A DNA stretch of 54,771 nucleotides, from assembly GCF_003149375.1 (NCBI RefSeq), contig NZ_QFWH01000011.1:1-54771 (forward strand). Reading direction: 5' to 3'. Positions within the stretch are counted from its first letter, which is position 1; every line of letters begins with the position of its first letter. This DNA comes from Vampirovibrio chlorellavorus (lineage in GTDB: Bacteria > Cyanobacteriota > Vampirovibrionia > Vampirovibrionales > Vampirovibrionaceae). Shown piece by piece: positions 879 to 1,796 of the stretch. Made by a program: the position numbers and the translations under genes. The notes under the pieces were generated by a model, which saw only the letters and a program-made list of their open reading frames with translations, was not told the DNA's origin and did not search any database.

Positions 879-1533
879 CTAGTTCCAGCTGAACCAGGCG
901 GGATCGCTGGAAGGAATGGCTGAGCGGTTCTTCGAACAGGTTGTTCCTGTAGTAGTTGAGTTCCATTTAGTGCTAGCGTCCAGGTTAGACTCGGTTGTTA
1001 GTCGCCCGTTTAAGTAAATGTAAAACCGAACGGCTTTGCCACTGCCGGTGGTTAGCCCACTGTAGCCAGGTTCGGGATCAAATGTGTATAAGACTGCCGT
1101 GGGGGTGCCATTACAAAAACCGTCTTGACCCCAGTAATAGAGTACGCCCCCATTATGTAAATGGTAGCAGACTCTTGTTCCAACGCCACAGGTGTAAGAA
1201 CTTTCTCCATTGACGCTATCGACTTCAGAGGTTAAATCCAGCTTGGTGTAATTCAGGTAAGGCACTAAGTCTCCCGCTCTCATCGTGCTGGCATCATTGC
1301 CTGATAGCTGATATGACATGTAAGCGCCAGATAACATGGCTGCAACTTCTTTAGCGGCGGCGTTGTAGCGGCCATTTTGCTGAGAGGTGAGAATTTTAGG
1401 GATGGTAAAGGTGGCAATCTCGGCCAGAATCAGTAGAGAGACCAGTAGCTCGGCCAGTGTAAAGCCTTGTAATCTTAACGGGAAGCACTTAGGTTTGCTC
1501 TGTCTGTCTGTCTGTCTGTCTGTCTGTCTTCAT
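879..1533 (-). CDS. Type IV pilin-like protein, start out of frame at a tetranucleotide tract (phase-variable, OFF as written)
   Basis: The frame open from 1529 down to 879 contains QGFTLAELLVSLLILAEIA, again with G|F cleavage site and Glu5, then a pilin head ending DPAWFSWN, paralogous to the gene at 179-778. No start codon exists in this frame: upstream it hits TGA at 1532-1530. The two available ATGs (1533-1531 and 1537-1535; GGAG lies nine bases before the latter) are in the other two frames and are separated from the coding frame by seven TCTG units plus TCT. Losing one unit puts ATG-1533 in frame (leader MKTDRQ...); gaining one puts ATG-1537 in frame. This is the layout of contingency genes switched by slipped-strand mispairing. 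The alternative is a dead gene or a repeat-count assembly error. Confidence 0.75.
1499..1529. repeat. TCTG tetranucleotide microsatellite (7.75 copies) at pilin start
   Basis: Seven perfect TCTG units followed by TCT (AGAC/CAGA on the coding strand). A four-base unit changes reading frame with each unit gained or lost, and all frames of the tract are free of stops (Asp-Arg-Gln-Thr repeats). Its place between start codons and the pilin leader makes it a translational switch rather than a promoter spacer. Confidence 0.9.
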
Positions 1534-1796
1534 ACATCGATTGAAACTCCGTGCAGGGATATGTAACAAAATTGGGCTTTTTTTGACCTCTTCTAGATGT
1601 GTACCTACGAATGGATAGTCTCTCGAGAGGCTAAATAGGTCTGAACGTAATTTTTTATCGGCACTGTCGGGTAAAACTTTAAAAATGGCTGGCTCCACGG
1701 TCATGCGGTGTCAGTGGGTGTTTTTTGTCGCTGAGGGAAACGTGTTTTTGAGGTAAAATCTTAAATCCAGCGATTAATCTTTAGGAACCCTCACTG

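Follow-up and report, generated by a model that had tools for sequence, protein, structure and literature searches.

The pilin gene at 879-1537 of the window (the whole 54,771-nucleotide stretch of DNA analysed here) is probably a phase-variable, contingency-locus type IV pilin that belongs to a phase-variable repertoire and has been caught in its OFF state. We prefer this reading to that of a decayed gene because the tracts of a congener differ from one another, pilins without tracts are always in frame, and OFF genes are intact. The window opens contig 11 of a draft genome (G000; 2.79 Mb, 14 contigs). It was compared with the congeneric V. chlorellavorus NCIMB 11383 (G004); G001 represents a third species. 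V. chlorellavorus preys on Chlorella and has flagella and genes for type IV pili (PMC4451040). Host-adapted pathogens provide the best-documented examples of repeat-driven phase variation. Here it would act on the structural pilins of a predator that belongs to the Cyanobacteriota but does not photosynthesise, and these bacteria probably turn single pilins on and off at random.

The gene is encoded on the minus strand, and its 5' end contains a tetranucleotide tract at 1499-1529 (7.75 copies). On the plus strand the tract reads as seven TCTG units plus TCT (100% perfect; Tandem Repeats Finder score 62), and on the minus strand as seven ACAG units at 1527-1500. Reading along the minus strand, a candidate ribosome-binding site, GGAG (1550-1547), is followed after 9 nt by an ATG (1537-1535; ATG-1537), a T, a second ATG (1533-1531; ATG-1533), AAG, the seven ACAG units and AGC. 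The initial annotation had placed seven TCTG units plus TCT between these two ATGs and the pilin frame, and had described both ATGs as out of frame and the pilin frame as running into a TGA; the sequence confirms each point. As written, the peptides that begin at ATG-1537 and ATG-1533 stop after 20 and 14 residues, respectively, and a TGA at 1532-1530 closes the pilin frame upstream of the tract. There is no in-frame ATG, GTG or TTG between this TGA and the GF motif of the pilin (GGC TTT ACA from 1466, encoding GF-T), so the gene is startless as written. An alternative start 3' of the tract was ruled out, since no start codon is found among those codons. ATG-1537 enters the pilin frame at 5, 8 or 11 ACAG units and ATG-1533 at 3, 6 or 9, while at 4, 7 or 10 units neither does so; the current count is seven. 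This frame arithmetic agrees with the earlier proposal that loss of one unit (to six) would connect ATG-1533 and gain of one (to eight) would connect ATG-1537, and with its logic of one OFF and two ON states. The proposal that GGAG is better spaced for ATG-1537 also holds, the distance being 9 nt as against 13 nt for ATG-1533.

A tract of this kind is not expected by chance. A first-order Markov model predicts 1e-9 tetranucleotide tracts of at least seven units for the window and about 6e-8 for 2.79 Mb. No other CAGA tract of at least five units occurs in the whole of G000, and no other tetranucleotide tract of at least four units in the 406 kb of that genome that was sampled. As in contingency loci, a perfect, beyond-chance SSR lies within the 5' end of a coding sequence, where a change in unit number joins or parts a start codon and an otherwise intact open reading frame.

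The open pilin frame (879-1529, minus strand; stop codon at 881-879) consists of the tract, 11 leader residues (SKPKCFPLRLQ) and a mature pilin of 195 amino acids that begins GFTLAELLVSLLILAEIATFTIPKIL; the prepilin peptidase site predicted from the motif (G/F) is at 1461-1466. A short basic leader precedes the N-terminal motif GFTLAELL, which conforms to the GFxxxE methylation and cleavage motif of type IV pilins. TIGR02532 scores 17.9 bits, above its cut-off of 16.3, and Pfam N_methyl scores 20.0 bits, slightly below its cut-off of 21.2. An AlphaFold2 model built from 40 sequences (pLDDT 93.5) has a helix at residues 4-54 followed by a beta domain, the long N-terminal helix on a beta-sheet globular domain that characterises the pilin superfamily. 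Foldseek alone gave no significant match in the PDB (best FimA, E 0.34); the top rows from VIA-align were FimA, PAK, PilA5, PilA4 and the PAO1 pilin, with modest Z scores of 6.6-5.3 that lie above those of unrelated rows. As modelled, the fold is that of a type IV pilin. One prepilin peptidase was found in G000 (PF06750 at G000:C2:217549-217800, 116 bits). Given the GF cleavage motif, the pilin layout and this peptidase gene, the tract encodes part of a leader that is expected to be cut off.

A second pilin without a tract lies in tandem (179-778, minus strand; GTG start, 199 amino acids), with a sigma-28-like promoter at 818-844. It is 92-93% identical to a V. chlorellavorus pilin in the same ffh locus. 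That locus has three tandem pilins in V. chlorellavorus, none of the three with a tract, and the order of the 92-93% and 64% identical counterparts differs between the two genomes. A search of genome and viral contigs with the bare protein returned no related loci, and the tract patterns had no match in viral contigs. Elsewhere in the window, an ORF at 3538-4746 contains about 28 copies of the hexanucleotide CCCACG (3787-3953, plus strand) that encode a Pro-Thr linker; these units are whole codons, and a change in their number would alter the length of the linker without a frameshift.

Searches with the window pilin gave between 8 and 42 matches per genome across the genus, and tracts recur among these paralogues. 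Nine pilins of V. chlorellavorus have a tract 32-70 nt before GFTLAELL, namely CAGA7, GACA5, CTCA6, AAGA6, C9, C10, C11, C13 and C26. Within 312 kb sampled from this genome, all four tetranucleotide tracts of at least four units were in pilin leaders (P ~8e-9), as were five of the six poly-C tracts of at least nine (P ~5e-10); the 312 kb were chosen around pilins, and the P values concern the position of the tracts, not their genome-wide density. Reversed-pattern controls gave no matches. The initial annotation had called for a comparison of repeat number in relatives; comparison among the paralogues of congeners favours a contingency locus: the V. chlorellavorus pilins have varied tracts and units, and their OFF genes are intact. 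Poly-C tracts of 8-18 are also found near several pilins of G001, mostly 140-170 nt upstream and with a longer leader, where their effect is less clear because in-frame ATGs lie downstream. No tract was found in the other pilins examined in G000, nor in the 17 pilins of G003 or the five of G002, two further congeneric genomes.

Each of the 70 sampled pilins that lack a tract has a start codon in frame, 3' of the promoter region, whereas 6 of 10 tract-bearing leaders from G000 and G004 have none (Fisher P 7e-7). About one third of the tract-bearing Vampirovibrio pilins are in frame, and those that are OFF have intact ORFs that extend for 180-208 residues past the tract. In the pilin pairs that were compared, the window gene included, changes fall mainly at the third positions of codons. 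Starts in two different frames are found in 5 of 11 tract-bearing leaders compared with 7 of 65 tract-less pilins (P=0.012). The CAGA7 pilin of V. chlorellavorus has the same ATGTATG start pair as the window gene, with its first ATG in frame, and in the C11 pilin (L143) the starts are out of frame in two different frames, reproducing the OFF logic of the window. On a tree of 88 pilins, 16 changes are needed to account for the presence of tracts in 18 genes, and the sisters of tract-bearing pilins are usually without one; thus, tracts have often been gained and lost, or moved among paralogues. The frame statistics, the intact downstream coding sequence and the recurrence in congeners support the proposal of a contingency locus.

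Upstream of the tract is a perfect (16/16) match to the flagellar sigma-28 consensus, TAAAGTTT-N11-GCCGATAA, at 1655-1681 on the minus strand. Sigma-28-like promoters (at least 12/16, within 300 nt) precede around nine tenths of the pilins of the genus, as against a few percent of random stretches. Genome-wide, the motif with at most two mismatches occurs 21 times in G000 against once for the reversed motif, and 36 times in V. chlorellavorus against 7. G000 encodes FliA (247 bits; cut-off 189.6), which may use the promoter at 1681-1655. Genes behind other sigma-28-like sites, named by eye, include a sugar-nucleotide epimerase-like gene and one for an OmpA/MotB-like protein; a further site in the window, TACAGTTT-N11-ACCGATAA at 27349-27375 (minus strand), has two mismatches.

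Could the gene instead be frozen in the OFF position, a non-switching pilin that retains a relic of the repeat and has started to decay? We think this unlikely. Seven units are short for fast switching (PMC2992063), the tract is the only one among the G000 pilins examined, and the gene has diverged faster from its V. chlorellavorus counterpart, its nearest relative there, which occupies the same ffh locus and has no tract (64% identity, dS saturated), than has its neighbour (92%). However, all 206 codons are open, the cysteines and the C-terminus are conserved, and the substitutions that separate it from that counterpart are biased to third codon positions. The promoter, GGAG and both start codons are also intact, and the tract-bearing pilins of V. 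chlorellavorus, too, are as a rule out of frame and yet have intact ORFs. An error of assembly in the number of units or the frame, concealing a gene that is constantly in frame, has very little probability. The assembly is a draft in 14 contigs, but a perfect tract of 31 nt is well within the length of a short read, and pilins with a tract account for every OFF state (0 of the 70 others), which general noise in the assembly would not explain.

Two further explanations accept the OFF frame and interpret it differently. The large families of paralogues, the patchy distribution of tracts on the tree and the changed order of pilins at ffh suggest recombination among pilin copies, and the gene might then be a silent donor cassette, unexpressed where it stands and feeding other loci by gene conversion in the manner of Neisseria pilS and pilE. 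The pilS cassettes are promoterless and 5'-truncated. The window pilin is not of this type, having its own promoter, GGAG and two ATGs; the other copies, too, come with promoters of their own and mostly with a start codon, and no single expression locus stands out. A donor role is therefore improbable. It is scarcely probable that the tract is a recoding site at which ribosomal or transcriptional slippage gives constant, low expression with no genetic switch. In one Gastranaerophilales genome, every poly-C tract that was read has a length of exactly C10, and most of those in front of pilins do not share the frame of the ATG upstream, which is more in keeping with a programmed site than with free slippage. 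A tetranucleotide tract is no known slippery site, however, and the Vampirovibrio tracts differ in unit and length; roughly a third of them are in frame, the share expected from random phase.

We return, then, to a contingency locus. Replication slippage on the ACAG tract would add or remove units. In one frame out of three the pilin would go untranslated, and in the other two it would be joined to ATG-1537 or to ATG-1533. The former, with its better spacing from GGAG, would probably be the stronger start and the latter the weaker, a difference that we infer from the sequence, and a two-level ON state is possible. The ACAG repeats would encode a stop-free T-D-R-Q peptide that is the same in every frame and, with the tract in the cleaved leader, all ON states would yield one mature pilin. 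Such a placement leaves the mature protein independent of repeat length, and it is spread over a paralogue family. Switching may be slow at seven units: according to De Bolle et al., as quoted in PMC2992063, a mod gene of Haemophilus that had 5-11 tetranucleotide units switched rarely, if at all.

Genomes of the genus each have a family of about 10-40 pilins, to which the window pilin would belong. Since most of these lie behind sigma-28-like promoters, FliA would govern their transcription during the motile phase, and random switching would act on single pilins at the level of translation. The pilins presumably form surface fibres that take part in contact with prey. We propose tentatively, as a real possibility that we do not yet favour, that Vampirovibrio has a combinatorial pilin wardrobe in which dozens of pilins are under the control of one flagellar sigma factor and a subset is switched independently by leader tracts. 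If this were true, a clone would always contain cells with differing pilin sets and could meet varied prey surfaces or phages. The prediction is that pilins differ from cell to cell in a predator of commercially grown Chlorella.

Searching the class for C9 with GFTLAE gave matches in 30 of 382 genomes and none with the reversed control. We set aside this extension to the gut relatives as support because, in G083 (Gastranaerophilales), the tract is fixed at C10 and is not specific to pilins. That genome (L308-L327) has 176 poly-C tracts of at least nine; all that were read are exactly C10 followed by G, within a loose local motif, approximately GCTTnAAnnTG-C10-G. They are strand-biased along contigs and lie in the leaders of pilin-like genes of either orientation, and many are in or near other genes. 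A count of 97 out-of-frame cases among 104 was likewise discarded as biased: the pattern demanded at least nine C, which excluded the in-frame C8. In G215, a rabbit Gastranaerophilales MAG, near-identical pilin leaders have C10, C11, C12 and C13 (L228, L242, L243 and L270), a sign of tract-length change among paralogues. In four other Gastranaerophilales loci (L212, L276, L221 and L259) the first GFTLAE of a pilin leader precedes sequence that resembles a palindromic repeat, and in two of them a second GFTLAEVLIT comes next. The impression is of a repeat element inserted into the leader. The record MW495066.1, 'Microcystis phage MaAM05' (273,876 bp), may be a fragment of a Vampirovibrionia chromosome. 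Its first 50 kb (L328, 1-50000) reads as bacterial chromosome, with ispG, mqnC, trpS, fliA, ispH, rpsA-rplU-rpmA, ruvA, tRNA-Trp-secE-nusG-rplK-rplA, pgi and ilvD; elsewhere (L307) it has uvrA, clsA and two tandem Vampirovibrio-type pilins with sigma-28-like promoters. In a 2026 paper, the ribosomal genes of Microcystis phage PhiMa05, probably the same or a related record, are treated as viral (PMC13157829).

Tetranucleotide contingency genes have their tracts at the 5' ends of ORFs (PMC2651432), and in licA of Haemophilus influenzae the alpha, beta and gamma starts precede CAAT repeats (PMC2992063). The comparison with multi-start Haemophilus genes made in the initial annotation is apt: in licA (lic1), too, a tetranucleotide tract directly follows several starts and the ON/OFF logic is translational, and the two-start arrangement recurs among the tract-bearing leaders described above. 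The window gene differs from licA in encoding a structural pilin, in a cyanobacterial lineage that does not photosynthesise, and the peptide encoded by its repeat would be absent from the mature protein. Moreover, licA has about 15-27 units on average compared with seven here, where the switching is putative. Neisseria also varies its type IV pili by SSRs or recombination, with poly-C/poly-G tracts in pilC and SSRs in some pilS alleles (PMC5953494); there, one expressed pilin is varied by gene conversion and an accessory protein is switched, whereas Vampirovibrio has many pilin genes with their own promoters and with tracts in the leaders. In the open-licence literature that was searched, we found no report of pilin phase variation or repeat-switched pilins in Vampirovibrio, Melainabacteria or Gastranaerophilales, and within those bounds the claim that it was undescribed in such organisms stands. 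Another predator, Bdellovibrio, resembles the arrangement proposed for Vampirovibrio in linking pilins to the flagellar sigma factor, its flp1-flp2 (TAD) pilin operon being driven by FliA in attack phase (PMC5430801). The Bdellovibrio genes encode type IVb Flp pilins in an operon, and the portion of that report consulted mentions no repeat tracts, in contrast to the dispersed GFTLAE pilins of Vampirovibrio. Thus, licA-type logic and SSR control of Neisseria pilus genes are already known; what is new is the organism, the placement of the tract in the cleaved leader of structural pilins, and a repertoire of these genes behind sigma-28-like promoters.
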